Origin: a virus
DNA: 38,744 bases
Strand: one strand, 5' to 3'
IMG/VR virus record: IMGVR_UViG_3300015164_000004
Location: 1 to 38,744 of that record
The translations under genes and the position numbers were made by a program. Shown here piece after piece: positions 2,453 through 35,257 of this stretch. The notes under the pieces are model-generated. The model was given only the letters and a program-made list of their open reading frames with translations. It was not told the DNA's origin and ran no database searches. Every line of letters starts with the position of its first letter. Positions within the stretch are counted from its first letter, which is position 1.

Positions 2453-2619
2453 TGTCTTTACCAATTATTAACGTCGATAAACAACGTAGGAACTTTCCAG
2501 GTTATAGTAAGACAGTCTTAACTGAAGCTGACCAAGAGGAAGTTATGGAAGGTGGGACTACAGAAACAGATTACTCCGATAATCAGGAAAGAAAAGAAGA
2601 AAAGGCTGAACGTGAATGA
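2452..2619 (+). CDS. Small acidic protein, 55 aa
   Basis: Begins MSLPIINVDKQRRNFPGYSK; the C-terminal half is strongly charged (Glu/Lys/Arg) and probably disordered or helical. It overlaps its neighbours at both ends (TAATG, AATGA). No family recognised. Confidence 0.6.
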   Translation: MSLPIINVDKQRRNFPGYSKTVLTEADQEEVMEGGTTETDYSDNQERKEEKAERE

Positions 2620-3230
2620 CTGCTAAACAAATCAACGGACGCTTTGCTCCAGATGGTTCTGAGTACGTCTGTATTACAGATGGTGCTGGCAACTTAGGAG
2701 ATACTACCCTAACTGCAGCAGTAACTCAATCTGGTACATGGACAGTTCAACCAGGTAATACTGCAAACACTACTGCATGGAAGGTAGATGGCTCTGCCGT
2801 CACTCAACCAGTATCTCTAGCTACTCTACCAGTAACTAACGCAGGGACATTCGCAGTACAACCAGGATCTTCTGCCTTAACAGGAGGTATTCCTTCCACT
2901 GCAAGATTACTCTCTGCAGCAGGAACCTCTGGAGATGCGACTAACGTAAAGGCTTCCGCAGGTAGAGTTTACTCTATTCAAGGTGCTAACGTAGCAACTT
3001 CTGCTAGGTATCTTAAGTTATACAACTCTGCATCCGCTCCTACAGCAGGTGCAGGTACTCCAGTTAAAACCTTATACATTCCTGCTTCTTCTGCCTTCGT
3101 GTTCGATTGGCCTGTAGGTCTAACTTTCTCTACTGGAATAGGTTTTACCTTAGTCACGACTTCACCAGATAACGGTTCTACTTCAGTTACCGCAGGTGAT
3201 ATCTTAGCTCTTAACATAGATTACGCCTAA
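2616..3230 (+). CDS. Fibre- or decoration-like structural protein, 204 aa
   Basis: Begins MTAKQINGRFAPDGSEYVCI. The first half carries Thr/Val/Gly-rich imperfect repeats of the type TQSGTWTVQPG and NAGTFAVQPG, familiar from phage fibres, neck appendages and head decorations. The second half (about residues 95-204) looks like a compact beta-sandwich (YLKLYNSASAPTAG, LNIDYA at the end). No catalytic motif. It is immediately followed, with a one-base overlap, by another fibre-like gene, so the two probably form one surface structure. The position before the terminase gene, away from the long fibre at 11 kb, is unusual. Confidence 0.7.
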   Translation: MTAKQINGRFAPDGSEYVCITDGAGNLGDTTLTAAVTQSGTWTVQPGNTANTTAWKVDGSAVTQPVSLATLPVTNAGTFAVQPGSSALTGGIPSTARLLSAAGTSGDATNVKASAGRVYSIQGANVATSARYLKLYNSASAPTAGAGTPVKTLYIPASSAFVFDWPVGLTFSTGIGFTLVTTSPDNGSTSVTAGDILALNIDYA

Positions 3231-3973
3231 TGTCTGGTTTCTCTCAATTAAATCCTGTCCCCGTTCTTAACGGTGGAACAGGAGGAACTACCAGCACCGG
3301 ATCAGGTGCAGTAGTTTTAGCTACTTCTCCAACTTTAATTACACCTGTTTTAGGTGCGGCTACAGCAACAACCCTAAATGGGTATTTTTTGAATACCACT
3401 ACAGGTACATCAGGGTTTACCTTCGGGGCTAATTCAGCACTTACCCTTGCCGCAGGTAAGACTTTCACTTGTAATAACACACTTACTCTTACCGGAACAG
3501 ATGGTATTACTGCTTCATTAGGAGCAGTAGGACAAGTTCCAGGTATTGCTACTAGTACAGCAGCTTCTGCAGGTAATGTTGGTGAAGTTATTACCAGCGA
3601 TATTCCCTTCGGTTCTGCAGTTTCTTTAACAACTTCCACTGATGCTAATATAACTTCCATTACATTAACCGCAGGTGATTGGGACGTTAGAGGTGCAATA
3701 ACTTTTACGCCGGGTGCTAGTACTACGAACACCTATCTGCGCTCTAGTCTTTCCACTACTTCAGCAACACACGATGGAACTTTAGGACGCGCGTGCGCGA
3801 TTGCGTATCCATCTGGTACTGTTATTGGTGCAAGTGGTTTTTCTGGACAAATAGCTCCTAAAGTATTCACGGTAACTTCAGGAACAACTGTAGTTTACTT
3901 AACTGCCAGAGCAGATTTTGCTGTCTCTACAATGGTTGCTTACGGTAATCTAACAGCACGTAGAGTTAGATAG
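3230..3973 (+). CDS. Tail-fibre-like protein, 247 aa
   Basis: The N-terminal part (residues about 10-60) has the Gly/Thr/Pro repeat NGGTGGTTSTGSGAVVLATS followed by SPTLITPVLG, a module frequent in phage tail fibres. The middle is Thr/Gly-rich beta. The C-terminal third (LTAGDWDVRGAIT to VYLTARADFA and a basic RRVR tail) resembles a receptor-binding or fibre-tip beta-domain. It overlaps the preceding gene by one base and ends just before a membrane-protein gene. Short fibre or fibre tip are equally possible. Confidence 0.7.
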   Translation: MSGFSQLNPVPVLNGGTGGTTSTGSGAVVLATSPTLITPVLGAATATTLNGYFLNTTTGTSGFTFGANSALTLAAGKTFTCNNTLTLTGTDGITASLGAVGQVPGIATSTAASAGNVGEVITSDIPFGSAVSLTTSTDANITSITLTAGDWDVRGAITFTPGASTTNTYLRSSLSTTSATHDGTLGRACAIAYPSGTVIGASGFSGQIAPKVFTVTSGTTVVYLTARADFAVSTMVAYGNLTARRVR

Positions 3974-3978
3974 TTGTT

Positions 3979-4281
3979 GTGGAATGGATTATACCTGTAG
4001 TCACTTTACTGACTATTCTTCTGTCAGTTAGTGGAAGTGCTTGGGCTTTAAGGGGTTCAGTTTATAATGAATTCTCCAAAGTAAAAGACAATTTTTATGT
4101 TAGATTAGATAGTATGGAACAGAACATTTTAGATAAACTTGAATACCATGAACGTCATGATGATCGTAGATTTGACAATGTTAACAACGACTTACTCACA
4201 ATTAAATTACGTAATGCTGCAATAGATGGACTAAAGACCTATGGCCTTCGCTCCCCCGAAGAAAAAACAGATAGTAAATGA
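3979..4281 (+). CDS. Single-pass membrane protein with coiled coil, 100 aa
   Basis: GTG start at 3979 (no ATG fits). The N-terminus MEWIIPVVTLLTILLSVSGS is a membrane or signal-anchor segment (residues about 4-24), followed by a charged helix containing YHERHDDRRFDNV. The 3' end overlaps the terminase gene by 41 bases. Genes of this shape often sit next to phage terminases; the role is not known to me. A spanin or holin partner is possible. Confidence 0.65.
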   Translation: MEWIIPVVTLLTILLSVSGSAWALRGSVYNEFSKVKDNFYVRLDSMEQNILDKLEYHERHDDRRFDNVNNDLLTIKLRNAAIDGLKTYGLRSPEEKTDSK

Positions 4282-5833
4282 AGAGCGAGAAAATAGGCGA
4301 ATAGAAGCAGAAGGAAGTTTACTTGCTTTTATTGAGTTAGTACATCCTAAAAGATTACTAGGCAATGTTCATAGACAAGTAATTAGTTGGTGGACTAGAT
4401 CAAATGCTAGTTCACATCAATTACTTCTTCTTCCTAGAGACCACATGAAGTCTGCTTTAGTAGCCTACAGAGTAGTCTGGGAAATAACTAAAGACCCTAC
4501 TCTTAGAGTCCTTTTCATTTCCTCTACTTCTAATCTTGCTACTAAACAACTTAAGTTTATTAAAGATATATTAACTTGCGATAACTATCGTCTCTATTGG
4601 CCTGACATGGTACATCCAGAAGAGACTAAGCGTGAGAAATGGACCGAGAGGGAAATATCAATAGATGACCCCAGACGAAGAGCTGAGTCTGTACGAGATC
4701 CTACTATTTTCACTGCCGGTCTTACTAGCAATATCGTTGGTTTGCATTGTGATATTGCTGTACTTGACGACGTGGTCGTCACAGGAAATGCTTATACCGA
4801 AGATGGTAGAGATAAAGTACTAGACCAATATTCTCTCTTATCCTCAATTGAAACTGGTGATGCAAGAGAATGGGTCGTAGGTACTAGATACCATCCTAAA
4901 GATTTATACTCCCACTTAATGGACATGGAGATCGAAGAATACGATGTTCTCGGAAACGTTACAAAAACAACTCCACTCTTTGAAAAGAATGCTGATTATG
5001 GAGTCAAAGAACAAGTCGAGTCCGTCGGAGACGGATCAGGTGAATTCATCTGGCCTAGACAGCAACGCTCAGACGGAAAGTGGTTTGGCTTCGACCGAGA
5101 AGTTCTCGATAGAAAGAGAGCACAATACCTTAACAAAACACACTTCAGGGCTCAATACTATAACGATCCACACGACGTTGGATCCTCAGTATTCAAACGG
5201 GATTTATTCCAATATTACGAACCAGGCTTCCTCTCTAGAAAAGAAGGAAAGTGGTACTTCAAAGGCGAACGGCTCAATGTCTTTGCTGCCGTGGACTTTG
5301 CCTTCACAGTCAATAAGAAATCAGACTATACCTGCGTCGTCGTTATTGGAGTGGATGGAAAAGGAAATTACTACGTTCTGGAGATCGACAGGTTTAGAAC
5401 TGAAAAGATATCCGAACAATTCAACCACATTCTTAAACTCTACGAGCACTGGGGCTTCAGAAAGCTCAGAGCAGAAGTGACTGCAGCTCAGAAGACAATC
5501 GTATTAGATTTAAGAGACAACTACATTAGACCAATGGGTCTAGCTTTCTCCATCGAAGAATTCTTACCAACTAGGTTTCTAGGCTCAAAAGAAGAACGTA
5601 TTACATCTTGCCTAGAACCTAAATACGCTAATAGACAAATATGGCATGCACCTACAGGTAATTGCCAAGTCTTAGAAGAAGAACTTCTATTTTCCAATCC
5701 TGCACACGATGACGTTAAGGATGCTTTAGCATCAGCAATAGACTTCGCTGTCGCACCAATGAACATATTTAGATCAATGAAGAACGCAATACCACTGATG
5801 AATTTTAACACCCGTTTCGGAGGGGTGAACTAA
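4241..5833 (+). CDS. terL: Terminase large subunit
   Basis: ATP-driven motor that packages phage DNA into the prohead and cuts it with a C-terminal nuclease. The ATPase domain shows a Walker A-like loop LLLLPRDHMKSALV (residues about 61-74), in which Met replaces the usual Gly before Lys. Walker B is DIAVLDD (171-177). A motif near GTRYHPKDLY probably serves coupling. The RNase H-like nuclease domain shows FAAVDFAFTVNKKSDYT (Asp near 352), an acidic residue in AEVTAAQKTIV, and a distal DDVKDALASAIDF. At 530 aa the length is typical. It is followed by the portal gene. The long Ser/Thr-rich frame inside it (4944-5480) is a shadow. Confidence 0.95.
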   Translation: MAFAPPKKKQIVNEERENRRIEAEGSLLAFIELVHPKRLLGNVHRQVISWWTRSNASSHQLLLLPRDHMKSALVAYRVVWEITKDPTLRVLFISSTSNLATKQLKFIKDILTCDNYRLYWPDMVHPEETKREKWTEREISIDDPRRRAESVRDPTIFTAGLTSNIVGLHCDIAVLDDVVVTGNAYTEDGRDKVLDQYSLLSSIETGDAREWVVGTRYHPKDLYSHLMDMEIEEYDVLGNVTKTTPLFEKNADYGVKEQVESVGDGSGEFIWPRQQRSDGKWFGFDREVLDRKRAQYLNKTHFRAQYYNDPHDVGSSVFKRDLFQYYEPGFLSRKEGKWYFKGERLNVFAAVDFAFTVNKKSDYTCVVVIGVDGKGNYYVLEIDRFRTEKISEQFNHILKLYEHWGFRKLRAEVTAAQKTIVLDLRDNYIRPMGLAFSIEEFLPTRFLGSKEERITSCLEPKYANRQIWHAPTGNCQVLEEELLFSNPAHDDVKDALASAIDFAVAPMNIFRSMKNAIPLMNFNTRFGGVN

Positions 5834-5834
5834 C

Positions 5835-7643
5835 TTGACTGGTAAGACCCTAGAACTATTAAATGTTATTTCTCCAGACCTTCTGGCCACACGTATCACT
5901 GAGAAGTGGTTACAGTGGGATAGCTTACGTAATGTAAAGAAGACTGACTGGGAAGAAATTCGTAGGTACGTCTATGCCACAGATACTACCCAGACCACTA
6001 ACAACCAGTTACCCTGGAAGAATAAGACTACAGTTCCTAAGCTCTGTCAAATCAGAGATAACCTCTACGCTAACTATACTGCAACAATCTTCCCACAGAA
6101 CCAAGATAAGTGGTTAATCTGGGAAGCTAATGAACATGATTCTAATTCAGTAGACAAGCGTGATGCCATTACTAATTACATGGCATGGGCTATAAGTCAA
6201 CCTTCCTTCAAGCATGAATTGGATAAAATACTATTAGACTACATCGACTTCGGTAATTGCTTTCTCACTGTCGAATGGATTGATGAGCGTATTCAAAAGG
6301 AAGATGGTTCAACTCAGATGGGCTACGTAGGCCCAGGCCTGAGACGCATCAGTCCCTTAGATATTGTATTCAACCCTACCGCAGAGAACTTCATTTCCTC
6401 TCCTAAGATCATCCGTTCTTTAATTAGTATGGGTGAACTTAAGAAGATGTTAGATAAGATGTCTAACAATGAGAATAGGGAAGCTTACGAAGAGTTATAT
6501 AAATACTTAAAGGATGTACGCTTTCATGCCAGAAACTTCCAAGGGGATTGGATACAAAGAGATCATCTCTATGCTATGGACGGCTTTACAAGTTTCAGAG
6601 CCTACCTTATGTCGGACTTCGTTGAAGTGCTCACCCTCTACGGAGATTGGTATGATCCGTACAACGATAAGTTCCAAGAGAACCGTGTTATTACTGTCGT
6701 AGACAGACATAAGTTAATTGATAATAAAGCTAATCCTTCCTTCTTCGGTTACCCCCCAATCTACCACTGCCCCTGGCGCAAGAAACAAGATAATCTGTGG
6801 GGAATGGGACCTTTAGACAACTTAATTGGTATGCAATACCGTATGGATCACATGGAGAACATGAAAGCTGATGTTCTTGATTTGATTACATACCCAGTGC
6901 AAAAGGTCAAAGGCTTCGTAGAAGACTTCACTTGGCAGCCAGGGGAGAAGATCTTTGTCTCAGATGAAGGTGACGTAGAACTTATCTGTCCTGATGTAGA
7001 TGCTCTTAAGGCTAACTTAGAAATACAGAACTTAGAACGTCTCATGGAAGAGATGGCCGGTGCACCTAGAGAAGCCATGGGCTTCCGTACACCAGGCGAG
7101 AAGACTAAGTACGAAGTACAACGCATGGAGAATGCAGCTTCACGTATCTTCCAGAACAAGTGCTTCCAATTCTCCGAGATGGGCTTTGAACCTGCAATCA
7201 ATGCCATGCTTGAATTAGCTAGGCGTAACCTCACAGGTTCCTTAGTAATCAAAGTATTCAACGATGATTTCAAAGTAGCTTCTTTCCAAACCTTAACTGT
7301 CGAAGACATCACAGGCATTGGTAGAATTAAACCTGTGGCTGTGAAACACTTCGCAGAACAAGCAGACTTAATTCAGAACTTAACTAACTTAACTAACTCC
7401 CCCCTATGGCCTACCGTTCAACCTCACTTCTCAGGTATTAAACTAGCCAAACTTGTCTCTAATATATTTGGTCTAGATAACTACGATGTCAATATTCCTT
7501 ACGTAGGGATGTCTGAACAAGCCGAAGGACAGAAGTTTGTCAATGCTCTACAAGAGCAAGTACACATGTCTGCAGGTACAGCTACAGGGTTAGGTGGAGA
7601 CTATGACTTACATTCTCAACCAGGACCACAGAGGCCACAGTAA
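5835..7643 (+). CDS. Portal (head-to-tail connector) protein
   Basis: Forms the dodecameric ring at one capsid vertex through which DNA enters and leaves. At 602 aa it is in the size range of podovirus portals. It begins MTGKTLELLNVISPDLLATR and has the usual mix of an N-terminal helical region, a long wing (GPGLRRISPLDIVFNPTAEN), and a C-terminal helical stem rich in Leu/Asn and Gln. The start is TTG at 5835, chosen because GGAGGGG lies about 11 nt upstream and no ATG fits. Order terminase-portal-small protein-scaffold-capsid supports the call. Its last base overlaps the ATG of the next gene. Confidence 0.9.
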   Translation: MTGKTLELLNVISPDLLATRITEKWLQWDSLRNVKKTDWEEIRRYVYATDTTQTTNNQLPWKNKTTVPKLCQIRDNLYANYTATIFPQNQDKWLIWEANEHDSNSVDKRDAITNYMAWAISQPSFKHELDKILLDYIDFGNCFLTVEWIDERIQKEDGSTQMGYVGPGLRRISPLDIVFNPTAENFISSPKIIRSLISMGELKKMLDKMSNNENREAYEELYKYLKDVRFHARNFQGDWIQRDHLYAMDGFTSFRAYLMSDFVEVLTLYGDWYDPYNDKFQENRVITVVDRHKLIDNKANPSFFGYPPIYHCPWRKKQDNLWGMGPLDNLIGMQYRMDHMENMKADVLDLITYPVQKVKGFVEDFTWQPGEKIFVSDEGDVELICPDVDALKANLEIQNLERLMEEMAGAPREAMGFRTPGEKTKYEVQRMENAASRIFQNKCFQFSEMGFEPAINAMLELARRNLTGSLVIKVFNDDFKVASFQTLTVEDITGIGRIKPVAVKHFAEQADLIQNLTNLTNSPLWPTVQPHFSGIKLAKLVSNIFGLDNYDVNIPYVGMSEQAEGQKFVNALQEQVHMSAGTATGLGGDYDLHSQPGPQRPQ

Positions 7644-32006: not shown

Positions 32007-32198
32007 TCAATCTATAGGTTTGTCTAGTCCGTAATAGTGCTCATACCTGTTGTAGCAGTTTACGTGGAACCATACATCGTCTTTAAGAAAGTCACTCTCA
32101 GGGTATCTGTGTCCTTCTCCAGCTATAATAAACAAACCACACTTATGACATAGAACATTCTCTCTAGTCACCTGATCAGTGATATACGGTTTGTCCAT
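32007..32198 (-). CDS. Zinc-binding small protein, 63 aa
   Basis: Begins MDKPYITDQVTRENVLCHKC. Ligands CHKC (17-20) and HVNC (45-48) form a four-ligand zinc site with a 24-residue loop, like a LIM/treble-clef type. It overlaps the nuclease gene by 23 bases. DNA or protein binding is an inference. Confidence 0.65.
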   Translation of the reverse strand: MDKPYITDQVTRENVLCHKCGLFIIAGEGHRYPESDFLKDDVWFHVNCYNRYEHYYGLDKPID

Positions 32199-33000
32199 TC
32201 TTATCTACCTCTCTGATGTATTGTTTAGTTCTTACATCATATGGAAGTCTTGAGACATTAGTTAAATAGACTGGTCCGTTGGCGTAGAGGAAGGTCCTGA
32301 GGTCAGGGAAGCAACAGTACTTATATGAGCTGTAACTAGCCTTTGTATCGAGCTTAATGTTGCCAGAGCTTCCGTCTTCGACTGTTTGGCATTCACAGCT
32401 CGGTGGACTAGGCAATCCAACAATACTTTTATAGTATCGTATTCTAGCTGTAATAGGTTCTGGCCTGACTGTGTGTTCATATAAGCACATATGTCCTAGT
32501 TGTTTATCTACTGCTAATAGGTAACCCTTATCCTTCACTCGGACAAGAGGGTCCTGAGCACTTGCCACCACGTAACCGTCGAGCTGATCCAAATAACCGA
32601 ACATATCGTCGAGGTGTAAGGTCTTGTTTTTGAACTTGAGGAAAGACTTACTAGCAGCAGATTTAACATCAACGGTGCAACCGTCAATGATGCAGTCGCG
32701 ATGACCAAGGACTCCATCGAGTTCAAGTTCATCTTGCTCTCCTGTTACCTCATGTCCTGCTGCTTTAGCTAACTCAATGGCTAACTGTTCAATTACATGC
32801 CCGAACATAAACTTGAATTCAGTCCAAGGTTGCATCTTTTCAGCTAGCTCAGGATGATGTATTGAATACCATAAAGCTCTAGGACACTGTGATCCCATCT
32901 GAGATAGACGTAAGGAAGGTTTATGTATTTCCTTCTTTCTATCGAAGGTACTCTTTAAGTGATATCCATCTTTCAGAACCTTCTGAATATCAGGTATCAA
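32176..33000 (-). CDS. Cas4/RecB-like PD-(D/E)XK exonuclease, 274 aa
   Basis: Probably degrades host or recombining DNA from ends. Visible active-site parts: Glu71 in GHVIEQL, Asp102 in GHRDCIIDG, Asp111-Val-Lys113 in TVDVKSAA, and the RecB-family QxxxY at 139-143 (QLDGY). One Cys near the N-terminus (Cys39, CPRALWY) and three or four at the C-terminus (202, 204, 229, 230) follow the Cas4/AddB arrangement that holds an Fe-S cluster. The TTG at 33000 is the only upstream start and has no ribosome site, so the true start is uncertain. Length is normal for phage members. Confidence 0.85.
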   Translation of the reverse strand: MIPDIQKVLKDGYHLKSTFDRKKEIHKPSLRLSQMGSQCPRALWYSIHHPELAEKMQPWTEFKFMFGHVIEQLAIELAKAAGHEVTGEQDELELDGVLGHRDCIIDGCTVDVKSAASKSFLKFKNKTLHLDDMFGYLDQLDGYVVASAQDPLVRVKDKGYLLAVDKQLGHMCLYEHTVRPEPITARIRYYKSIVGLPSPPSCECQTVEDGSSGNIKLDTKASYSSYKYCCFPDLRTFLYANGPVYLTNVSRLPYDVRTKQYIREVDKNGQTVYH

Positions 33001-33014
33001 CGTAGTAATATTAG

Positions 33015-33272
33015 TTATTGTAATATCCTCTGCATGATTAAGATTGATACTTTACCTAAGCCTACATAAAAGGGACCTGCAAATGGAATTGCTAAGGTCA
33101 GTACTAAAGTCTTCTGTAAGATACTTAACTTACTCCAGACATCTTTCTTCTCTTCCTTCTTCTCTTCCTTCTTACCGTCGCCTTTACGTTCCTTAATTAA
33201 CTCTCGTACTTCCTTCATCTCTTCTAATTCAAGAAAACGTTCAATGTAGCTATGACGTGGGTTCTTAGCCAT
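33015..33272 (-). CDS. Tail-anchored membrane protein, 85 aa
   Basis: ATG at 33272 with AAAGGAACG upstream. Begins MAKNPRHSYIERFLELEEMK; a Lys/Glu-rich helix (residues about 28-45) is followed by a hydrophobic stretch at about 50-80 (LVLTLAIPFAGPFYVGLG). One or two membrane passes. It is the first protein gene after the long structured region. Role unknown. Confidence 0.65.
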   Translation of the reverse strand: MAKNPRHSYIERFLELEEMKEVRELIKERKGDGKKEEKKEEKKDVWSKLSILQKTLVLTLAIPFAGPFYVGLGKVSILIMQRILQ

Positions 33273-33292: not shown

Positions 33293-33332
33293 GGGAGAGG
33301 ATTTACAGTTTCCCTACCTCTCCCACCCTTTT
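33293..33332 (+). terminator. 8-bp hairpin with T-tract on the plus strand
   Basis: GGGAGAGG (33293-33300) and CCTCTCCC (33317-33324) pair perfectly, and the plus strand continues to TTTT at 33329-33332. It would stop plus-strand (antisense) transcription. Read on the minus strand it has no T-tract and lies 20 nt before the membrane-protein gene, where it could mark or protect the 3' end of the upstream structured RNA. Confidence 0.6.
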
Positions 33333-33339
33333 GTTATTA

Positions 33340-33381
33340 TTAAGGAGGCTGCTGTGTCTGTTGTTTAAGTTCCAGATACAT
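33340..33381 (-). CDS. Possible 13-aa leader peptide
   Basis: ATG at 33381 has an ideal GGAGG 8 nt upstream and encodes MYLELKQQTQQPP, ending 15 bases before the 8-bp hairpin. Placement before a hairpin and a downstream gene resembles a leader peptide. It is short enough to be chance. Confidence 0.3.
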   Translation of the reverse strand: MYLELKQQTQQPP

Positions 33382-33637
33382 TAACCTACCTCCGTTTTAT
33401 ATTAGGGTGGGTTTAGTCTATCCAGTCCCTTCAGCTAGGCGAGCTTACTTACAGACGAGCTGTGTATTAGCCCGGTTTCACTGGCCTTTGCTTACTTCTC
33501 TCTATCTTCCTCAGCATCCCTTGGACAGCAGAGAGTGAACCTAGATAAACATTCTGCTCTTGTCTCTCCCTCAGAAGGAGGCTTTAGGAGCAGTTATTAC
33601 TATTTGCCTAGCCGCGTATACCAATTCCGCCAGCTAT

Positions 33638-33700
33638 TGAGGACTTGAACCTCCACGTCCCGTTCTAGGATACTAGGGACAGCTAGGACTTTCCGTTGTT
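33638..33700 (-). other. T-loop arm with flanking hairpin, tRNA-like fragment
   Basis: On the minus strand GAGG-TTCAAGT-CCTC (33639-33653) is a textbook T-arm. Upstream, GTCCC and GGGAC pair around a 14-base loop. A TAGCTGT further upstream can pair with ATAGCTG after the T-arm. The acceptor-to-T-arm span is only about 55 nt, with no D-arm, so it is not a normal tRNA. Confidence 0.4.
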
Positions 33701-33932
33701 CACTTCAACCATTGTATCTCCGATGTCCAGAGACCCTTCATGGTGATGGCATGAACAGGTACGTCTTTGCAATACGTACTTCCCTACCGAGACTTGCTTC
33801 ACGACGGTTGCTTTACCAGCTATAGCTTTGCAAGCTATTAAGATGGACGGCTTTCCTTCCGGCTTACATACCGAGGTAAGTCTTAGGATTAGGTCGGGCT
33901 TTTGGACAGCCACACAAGGACTACATCCTAGA

Positions 33933-33949
33933 GTAGGGATCGAACCTAC
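33933..33949 (-). other. T-loop arm (TTCGATC loop)
   Basis: GTAGG-TTCGATC-CCTAC on the minus strand is a perfect five-pair T-arm. A possible outer stem (AGGGACT with AGTCCTT) leaves a ten-base insert between the T-arm and the acceptor strand, which excludes a standard tRNA. Confidence 0.45.
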
Positions 33950-34501
33950 AAGCCTTGGTACTCACTACTGTTACTCGCCCAAATCGGGAGTCTCCACAGT
34001 ACATAGGGAGTCCCTCCGTCTATGGCCTTAGGTAGGACATTCACCTGTTAAGAAGCTTTCGCCTGAATAACAGGATAGGCTTAGCCAGTGTAACCTGCTT
34101 CCCTGGCGTGGTGACCAGGACCATTCAGCCTGGGACTGTCCCATTCGAATGGCGTTACACCGCAGTCTAATGGCTCTCTCACCGAGAGGAGGGTGTAATC
34201 CCATTATGCGTTCCCTCGTTTGTTTTGCTTTCACAGATTGAGTGTCTGTGTGATTACCAGACCAGCATTGGCCGTCTACCCAAGGTTTTGCACCCTCTGT
34301 TTCGTATTACAGCATCCTAATTCTAGGTAAGGCCCCTAAGCATTGCGGGGAAACTGGTGAGTAATCCTATGTCTCAAGGTAAGTCCCAAGTAGAGACGAA
34401 CCTCGGGCTAGCGCCCTTGTGAAGTAAGGTCGCTGCTAGGGTGCAGACCCCCAGCATATGCGAACGTGGGTACGCAACTCCCACAACTCTTCCCGACGAC
34501 A

Positions 34502-34518
34502 TCAGGCCTCGAACCTGA
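34502..34518 (-). other. T-loop arm (TTCGAGG loop)
   Basis: TCAGG-TTCGAGG-CCTGA on the minus strand is a perfect T-arm. GGCGGTA upstream can pair, with wobble pairs, with TGTCGTC after it, giving an 84-nt element. Its interior does not form standard D and anticodon arms (ACAG/CTGT closes a 15-base loop). Confidence 0.45.
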
Positions 34519-34650
34519 CTTACAGCCTCGCTAGCTTTTACTGTTGCCGTTATCTGGGCTTGAGCTTCCCTACCGCCGGTAAACAGCCGGTTAAGTAGCT
34601 ATTATCTCTGTTGCTTAGAGATGCTGCGATTTTAATTCGCTAAGTAAATA

Positions 34651-34745
34651 GGCCTGCGGAGGGACTTTAACCCCACCTCCCCCGGTTTCCCGTCGAGTCA
34701 CGTCGATCCATCAATGGGGGGCTCTTGCTGTTGAGCTACGCAGGC
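34651..34745 (-). tRNA. tRNA-like element with expanded anticodon arm
   Basis: Starting 5 nt after the SSB stop, GCCTGCG and CGCAGGC form a perfect seven-pair acceptor stem. TA is followed by a four-pair D-stem (GCTC/GAGC) whose loop AACAGCAA lacks the usual GG. CCCCC/GGGGG form the next stem, and a T-arm GGGG-TTAAAGT-CCCT has A in place of the invariant C56. The CCCCC/GGGGG stem closes 32 bases instead of 7. Those bases contain a TCGA/TCGA hairpin and a CGG-GAAA-CCG hairpin, so no anticodon can be read. It may be a tRNA with a short intron, or a tRNA mimic at the head of the structured region. CCA is not encoded. Confidence 0.5.
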
Positions 34746-34750
34746 TTAAT

Positions 34751-35257
34751 CTAAAAATACTGTGGTTGTTTCTCTAATCCCTCAACAGCCTTCAACTGTT
34801 CAGGGTTATAATCCTTACGTTCATAAGGTACTAAGTTATCTACTCTGACACTATATAACCTAATGGCAGAACCTCTCTCTGTCTTCTTAAAGGGATTAGT
34901 GAAGGGGTAATATTCAAACTTACAAGTTACATCTGAACCATTCCCTATTGCAACACCCTTCATAGGTTTACCATCTTTATCTACAACTTCTACTGGCTGT
35001 AGCTGAGTCTCCTTACCTTGCCATATCTTAACGCAAGGTCTCTTAGCATTAATCCAAGAACCTTCTTCATCTTCTGTAAGTTCATTCTTAATGCCAGTGA
35101 TCCCTTCCTTACCTTTCTTCAAGGTATTGAAGATATCAATAGATGCTGGGGTAAGGTATAAAGGCCCACCCCAGTACCTATACTTAGGATCAGGAGCATC
35201 TACTTTGAAGAACTTAACCTTACCTTGTAAGTATACCCAATCAAATCCCTTAACCAT
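34751..35257 (-). CDS. Single-stranded DNA-binding protein, T7 gp2.5-like
   Basis: Coats single-stranded DNA in replication and recombination. 168 aa from the ATG at 35257; the longer TTG start at 35269 sits on the ribosome site AAAGG and is unlikely. Begins MVKGFDWVYLQGKVKFFKVD. An OB-fold pattern of strands follows: KYRYWGGPLYLTP, RPCVKIWQGKETQLQPVEVV, DVTCKFEYYPFTNPFK, and SAIRLYSVRVDNLVPYE. The tail ends QPQYF; gp2.5 also ends in an aromatic Phe, but the strongly acidic tail is absent here. It lies next to the DNA polymerase operon and directly before the structured RNA region. Confidence 0.85.
   Translation of the reverse strand: MVKGFDWVYLQGKVKFFKVDAPDPKYRYWGGPLYLTPASIDIFNTLKKGKEGITGIKNELTEDEEGSWINAKRPCVKIWQGKETQLQPVEVVDKDGKPMKGVAIGNGSDVTCKFEYYPFTNPFKKTERGSAIRLYSVRVDNLVPYERKDYNPEQLKAVEGLEKQPQYF

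Follow-up and report, generated by a model that had tools for sequence, protein, structure and literature searches.

The window analysed here comprises all 38,744 nucleotides of IMG/VR virus record IMGVR_UViG_3300015164_000004. This record is a 38.7-kb phage genome related to the Cobavirinae/SIO1-like podoviruses, with its nearest terminase and polymerase matches in Lentibacter, Celeribacter and Roseobacter phages; a blastn comparison with isolated phages gave no match. The replication block lies on the minus strand in the order DNA polymerase, SSB-like gene, non-coding gap, small ORF and Cas4-type exonuclease, and the gap and its surroundings contain the following features:

32176-33000, minus strand: Cas4-type exonuclease (PHROG 1990, E = 3.6e-23), the query used for finding relatives
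33015-33272, minus strand: small Lys/Glu-rich protein of 85 aa with a hydrophobic C-terminal helix; a similar ORF adjoins the mini-ORF in nearly all loci
33293-33324, minus strand: G+C-rich hairpin without a T run, 3' of the mini-ORF; covaries in a cluster of relatives (helix 57)
33340-33381, minus strand: mini-ORF MYLELKQQTQQPP, 13 codons, ending in Pro-Pro-UAA, with the Shine-Dalgarno sequence GGAGG within 33382-33394
33382-34750, minus strand: body of a large structured RNA, inferred from the lack of a long ORF, a syntenic stretch in relatives, covariation in the family and model matches
33607-33687, minus strand: circularly permuted tRNA-like domain, found by a rule-based search and by a model whose input sequences did not include the window
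33758-33780, minus strand: hairpin with loop TTGCAAAG, whose stem differs in sequence yet pairs in L002, L044 and L063
33933-33949, minus strand: T-arm hairpin GTAGG(TTCGATC)CCTAC, with a weak model match at 33924-33949
34044-34074, minus strand: two-tier GAAA hairpin, seen in the window
34503-34517, minus strand: T-arm-like hairpin CAGG(TTCGAGG)CCTG, with a weak model match at 34466-34518
34651-34745, minus strand: cloverleaf resembling a degenerate tRNA in normal order, located 5' in the RNA, seen in the window only and not called by ARAGORN
34751-35254, minus strand: SSB-like gene on the 5' side of the RNA, 39-48% identical among relatives (Pfam SSB_T7, E = 0.06, below the cut-off)

The limits of the RNA body are assigned and not mapped, with the 5' limit set at the end of the SSB-like gene and the 3' limit at the start of the mini-ORF. 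The sense strand of the stretch is the minus strand, the same as that of the neighbouring genes.

An original prediction, made from this DNA alone, had described 33325-34745 as devoid of a protein gene, richer in G+C than its surroundings and adjacent to an SSB gene. No ORF of at least 80 aa was found in this stretch on either strand, but the 13-codon mini-ORF at 33340-33381 had been missed. The difference in base composition was borne out (G+C of 0.47-0.52, versus mostly 0.36-0.46 in the rest of the window), and the SSB assignment has weak support only, from the Pfam match below the cut-off; a scan with the SSB-like protein retrieved no relatives, its sequence being too variable. Also absent from that prediction were the permuted tRNA domains, the Pro-Pro-stop ending of the mini-ORF and the link of the mini-ORF to the membrane-protein gene.

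A hidden or recoded protein gene has only the length of the stretch and the economy of phages with DNA to recommend it. Besides the lack of an ORF of at least 80 aa on either strand, most gaps in the family alignment (207/267) have lengths not divisible by three, the changes are in line with base pairing, and no conserved reading frame was seen across the stretch in relatives. We see virtually no chance that this explanation is correct.

Conservation and covariation in related phages

A search with the DNA polymerase retrieved five relatives (L002-L006; 55-66% identity), and an alignment of the Cas4-type exonuclease retrieved 219 contigs encoding a Cas4 relative, 80 loci of which form our family sample. 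Near-duplicates among these leave about 70 distinct loci, and two (L091 and L100) are uninformative, as their sequence starts too near the exonuclease. Since loci were picked through a neighbouring protein, the presence of the RNA in them is not a selection effect. A syntenic non-coding stretch, mostly of 1.0-2.4 kb and again richer in G+C, occurs in nearly all relatives (about 78). In L115, about 3.5 kb upstream of the exonuclease (2519-6000) contains no ORF of at least 100 aa, a longer such stretch than in any other locus.

The presence of the cassette follows a clade pattern. Mini-ORF and non-coding stretch were both present in 15/15 polymerase relatives of at least 46% identity, and the cassette was missing in 20/20 of those at or below 42%, one of which (L172) has a lone Pro-Pro-stop ORF without T arms. 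The most distant locus of the family sample, L120, lacks the cassette, and a Pro-Pro-stop match there, with a UGA stop, is probably due to chance. In the isolates phiM6, T5S1, CRP-4, CRP-13 and HTVC115P, genes are packed against each other at the corresponding place. When all viral contigs were searched with a conserved 21-base motif, 13 matched; 12 of these were known family members by contig name, and the remaining one, L213, is also a member. Pattern matches were found in bacterial genomes as well; none of these encoded a Cas4 relative, and the host is therefore not obtainable from them.

Strong evidence for a structured RNA came from the T-arm hairpins. In the family loci, hairpins with a canonical T loop number 102 on the sense strand and 2 on the antisense strand, with 1.85 in dinucleotide shuffles. 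Their three outer pairs are formed in 254/288 cells, as compared to 136 ± 6.7 expected when strands are re-paired among loci, and every Watson-Crick pair type occurs at each of these positions. Hairpins with the loop GTCTCATTAGC behaved similarly, with 0/2000 re-pairings reaching the observed pairing. Both re-pairing tests are independent of any consensus fold. A consensus fold computed for a cluster of seven sequences comprises 298 pairs. Of these, 113 show two-sided change; shuffles gave 57.9 ± 4.9, and sliding gave no more than 35. Because the fold was derived from the alignment being tested, the slid comparison is inflated. Covariation is seen, among other helices, in the T arms (helices 24 and 34), in a capped acceptor (helix 25) and in the 3' hairpin (helix 57). 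The antisense of this alignment folds well too (-336 versus -368 kcal/mol for the sense), as expected when most pairs are Watson-Crick. Since the order of modules varies among loci, one common tertiary fold has not been shown.

The perfect stems from which the original prediction argued are not beyond chance in the single sequence (an 841-nt fold gave an unexceptional z = -1.2), and it is the covariation in the family that supports its view of the stretch as structured. The two-tier hairpin at 34044-34074 is present, its GAAA loop reading on the minus strand, and so are the several T-loop arms, at 33639-33654, 33933-33949, 34503-34517 and, in degenerate form, 34652-34675, all on the minus strand. 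The stretch had been proposed to be either a GOLLD- or ROOL-like RNA or a new class. An Rfam search of the window and 14 relatives at gathering thresholds (GOLLD, ROOL, OLE, HEARO, group I/II introns and tRNA among the models) gave no match to a known family, and a lax search to E = 10 of the window region retrieved only NEAT1_2 and Bacilli-1, both chance matches; the new class is supported by covariation, strand asymmetry and a fixed position in about 78 relatives. A lack of covariation, conserved reading frames in homologues or tRNA calls would have refuted the proposal; covariation is strong, and neither long reading frames nor tRNAs turned up.

The Rfam result also bears on whether the stretch could be a self-splicing intron, another known ribozyme or a known ornate RNA that has diverged beyond the reach of Rfam. 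Group I/II introns and ornate RNAs do reach a comparable size with extensive structure, but no match was obtained in the window or the 14 relatives, the stretch lies between genes and not within one, and the mini-ORF would be left unexplained; we consider this very improbable. From comparative sequence evidence alone, we hold with high confidence that 33293-34750 (minus strand) is a member of an undescribed family of large structured phage RNAs of about 1-2.4 kb.

Several further elements recur in the family or mark the window. The GTCTCATTAGC hairpin, whose stem covaries, was observed in L043, L053, L054, L056, L061, L062, L064, L074, L075, L081, L086, L106, L108, L113, L114 and L118; a G-C and a U-G pair leave a 7-nt loop, CUCAUUA, in which position 33 is a U and the anticodon positions read CAU, so that the hairpin resembles a stand-alone anticodon arm. 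The motif CCGGTG(A/G)CAGACG...GATCAG(T/C)C is highly conserved and occurs at 24 distinct places (for example in L044, L061, L111 and L115); an A-to-G change paired with a U-to-C change, seen by eye, suggests a short helix that encloses an internal loop of conserved sequence. For the AGTATCCTAG loop, a simple flank test was negative because the distance of the stem start from the motif differs, and the hairpin is visible by eye only. The cloverleaf at 34651-34745 sits directly after the SSB-like gene and has a 7-bp acceptor (GCCTGCG/CGCAGGC), a D arm without GG and, in its degenerate T arm (34652-34675, minus strand), the T loop TTAAAGT; L002 has a plain hairpin instead. Processing of the RNA's 5' end might take place at this cloverleaf.

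tRNA-like domains in permuted order

In the domain at 33607-33687, an outer helix is formed by 33681-33687 with 33607-33613 and encloses a variable-arm hairpin (33657-33680, loop AGTATCCTAGAA), a T arm (33639-33654) and, at 33614-33632, U8-G9 and a D arm; a 5-nt linker replaces the acceptor. At many loci the T arm is followed by a short capped stem in place of CCA, such as CTAGCA-GT-TGCTAG in L061 and CCGTCA-GT-TGACGG in L082. Beyond the cap or linker come U8, G9, a leucine-type D arm (GCG...GG...CGC) and then a strand that pairs with the one before the variable region. As judged from these sequences, the domain is a tRNA read inside out, in which the anticodon stem serves as the entry, the acceptor is closed by a short loop or linker, and the T and D arms are kept.

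A rule-based search for such domains found 14 loci on the sense strand, a few of them weak, and none on the antisense strand or in shuffled sequences. Ten examples, not including the window or L002, were used to build a covariance model of the core from T arm to D arm, with the outer helix left out. The ten aligned domains gave a covariation of 0.669 versus 0.210 and a pairing of 97% versus 75%. This model matched the window at 33614-33654 (E = 3.8e-6), and the next three matches across the whole window, likewise on the minus strand, fell on its other T arms. When 81 loci were searched, the top 50 matches were all sense, ten of them being sequences used to build the model, and none of the 50 lay in the nine outgroups. 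The features expected of a permuted tRNA fold (a TTCRANY T loop, a D arm with GG, and covarying acceptor and anticodon stems) are present, with the acceptor of the window reduced to a linker.

T arms, leucine-type D arms and the cloverleaf-like 34651-34745 could also point to a decayed tRNA array, or to tandem tRNA genes with the 3' end of one abutting the 5' end of the next. ARAGORN called no normal-order cloverleaf tRNA gene, and no tmRNA, in the window or at the loci of 59 relatives, and the acceptor is closed. The acceptor caps go down to 2 nt, which leaves no space for a spacer and discriminator base. The permuted helices show covariation, and many loci have in common conserved loops and motifs that tRNAs are not known to contain. 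The tandem reading fails because no whole tRNA is present and the caps are too short, and we find a tRNA array scarcely credible.

A Pro-Pro-stop mini-ORF and a small protein at the 3' border

The 3' side of the RNA is bordered by a Shine-Dalgarno-led ORF of 7-33 codons ending in Pro-Pro-stop in all 78 informative family loci. Over 81 regions, 81 such ORFs were found on the sense strand and 2 on the antisense strand. The C-terminus is mostly (Q/R)PP, with Q or R at position -3 in 65/79 and a UAA stop in 76/79 (counts out of 79 include the probable chance match in L120). Apart from its C-terminal residues, mainly the last three, the peptide is variable. The Pro codons vary (CCT 96, CCA 30, CCC 19 and CCG 13), indicating that conservation acts on the peptide; one mark of a termination-arrest peptide, a conserved C-terminal Pro-Pro before the stop that is selected as peptide, is present. 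In E. coli, a C-terminal Pro-Pro before the stop arrested ribosomes in all contexts tested, leading to stop-codon cleavage and ssrA tagging (PMC3834316). By analogy, and with the host of this phage not known, we consider it probable that the mini-ORF arrests ribosomes.

Two other functions for the end of the mini-ORF were considered and rejected. A mimic of the anti-Shine-Dalgarno or 16S 3' end by CCTCCTTAA was ruled out because the third base of both Pro codons differs among loci. Pairing of the 3' end with the RNA body, as drawn in the consensus fold, lacks two-sided change in helices 21, 22, 26 and 27 and shows it at one pair only in helix 32.

The mini-ORF stop usually lies 40-100 nt ahead of the next start, with a hairpin between them in most loci; a G+C-rich hairpin was found in 61/79, as compared to 21 in shuffled sequences, and is not universal. 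The small Lys/Glu-rich protein usually follows. Its hydrophobic C-terminal helix is clear in 59/79 (hydropathy above 1.6), with the window protein at 1.59. Many small ORFs, among them those of L042, L046, L047, L049 and L060, start with a Tyr/Pro-rich tail (for example MSWGPNYIYPPPPPSYPPYPPVYG), and others start with a charged tail, so that two N-terminal types are combined with much the same hydrophobic helix at the C-terminus. We regard the small protein as a candidate partner of the RNA, with no binding data.

A Shine-Dalgarno-led mini-ORF 40-100 nt before the next start, followed by a hairpin, is the usual layout of a leader peptide. The RNA might accordingly be a giant cis-acting leader, that is, an untranslated sensor whose mini-ORF encodes an arrest or attenuation peptide controlling the small protein and the exonuclease in the style of SecM, TnaC or MgtL. 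However, a ribosome parked at the stop leaves the predicted access to the next start unchanged (median 0.50 to 0.52), with a gain above 0.2 in only 3/79 loci, so that the hallmark of SecM/TnaC-type attenuators, a stall that alters a fold hiding the next start or a terminator, is not seen; this rests on fold prediction only and does not cover Rho-dependent control. Nor would a leader need 1.5 kb of covarying RNA, and the window hairpin has no T run. We regard such a leader as unlikely, without dismissing it.

The mini-ORF might instead be uninvolved, a part of the downstream mRNA next to an RNA-only cage of the GOLLD/ROOL kind. Large ornate phage RNAs do build homo-oligomeric cages (PMC12286853), and no well-supported pairing connects the mini-ORF to the RNA body. 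The constant joint occurrence of RNA and mini-ORF speaks against this, yet both could belong to one inserted cassette. We judge it rather improbable.

Proposed function and comparison with known large RNAs

The RNA, its permuted module, the mini-ORF and their co-inheritance are established by the above analyses. The reading that we favour goes further, proposing a new RNA family with permuted tRNA domains that forms an arrest-bordered, possibly membrane-linked RNP; as a whole, we give it a probability of about 0.45. The RNA would be transcribed within the replication operon, an inference made without RNA-seq. A ribosome on the mini-ORF would arrest at Pro-Pro-UAA, the 3' border of the RNA, as on YbeL-PP in E. 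coli. The stall may mark, and help to cut, the junction at which the RNA gives way to the downstream mRNA, with cleavage at the stop codon or at +12, and may leave the RNA associated with the translation machinery, while the small protein, as a candidate partner, would tether the RNP at the membrane. The specific role of the arrest as a border or cutting signal, the ribosome link and the membrane tethering are inferred with no expression data and remain doubtful.

A bolder possibility, which we see as a long shot, is a viral RNA machine that mimics the translation apparatus: the permuted tRNA elbows would grip host ribosomes and the mini-ORF would park a ribosome in cis, giving a membrane-linked particle. 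If true, such a ribosome-RNA particle would redirect or shut down host translation during infection.

Among known systems, GOLLD and ROOL are likewise giant, non-coding, ornate RNAs found in phages and prophages; they too occur together with tRNAs or tRNA-like elements, their function is unsolved, and GOLLD was reported to bind ribosomes in pull-downs (PMC12286853). The new RNA differs from them in lacking an Rfam match, in its size (1-2.4 kb versus about 0.6-0.8 kb and more) and in its fixed place in the replication operon beside a Pro-Pro-stop mini-ORF. GOLLD and ROOL lie near real tRNAs, whereas the new RNA has built-in permuted tRNA-like folds and no tRNA genes nearby. In the system of OLE RNA and OapA, a membrane protein is encoded near a large RNA and an RNP forms at the membrane (PMC12265935), which recalls the adjacent protein with a hydrophobic helix in most of our loci, for which there are no binding data; in contrast to OLE, the new RNA has no Rfam match, is of phage and not cellular origin, and has a mini-ORF with no counterpart known to us there.

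tmRNA, including its permuted two-piece forms, shares a tRNA-like domain opened at the anticodon stem and a short frame ending in UAA, but in the new RNA the acceptor is closed, the CCA end is absent, the frame has its own Shine-Dalgarno sequence and start, and ARAGORN and Rfam are negative. Permuted tRNA genes also carry tRNA halves in reversed order, and their acceptor ends are likewise connected in the primary sequence; here, unlike there, the cap is often too short for excision, the open end has no anticodon loop, and the domain sits within a large RNA. Arrest peptides such as TnaC, SecM and YbeL-PP resemble the mini-ORF as short translated frames whose C-terminal proline motif impedes termination or elongation; they differ in that our mini-ORF flanks a giant RNA on its 3' side, where a parked ribosome leaves the predicted access to the next gene unchanged.

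Searches of the open-access literature (most subscription papers were outside our scope) turned up work on GOLLD, ROOL and OLE but not this architecture. The general kind, a large ornate phage RNA, is known, and the family belongs to none of the classes tested; for the composite of permuted closed tRNA, Pro-Pro-stop mini-gene and small protein no counterpart was found. Very large structured RNAs of bacteria and phages are few, and their functions are unsolved. The new RNA is bigger than most, and its permuted tRNA folds, for which the literature searched gave no description, its predicted arrest mini-gene and its candidate partner offer three handles on the function of such RNAs.
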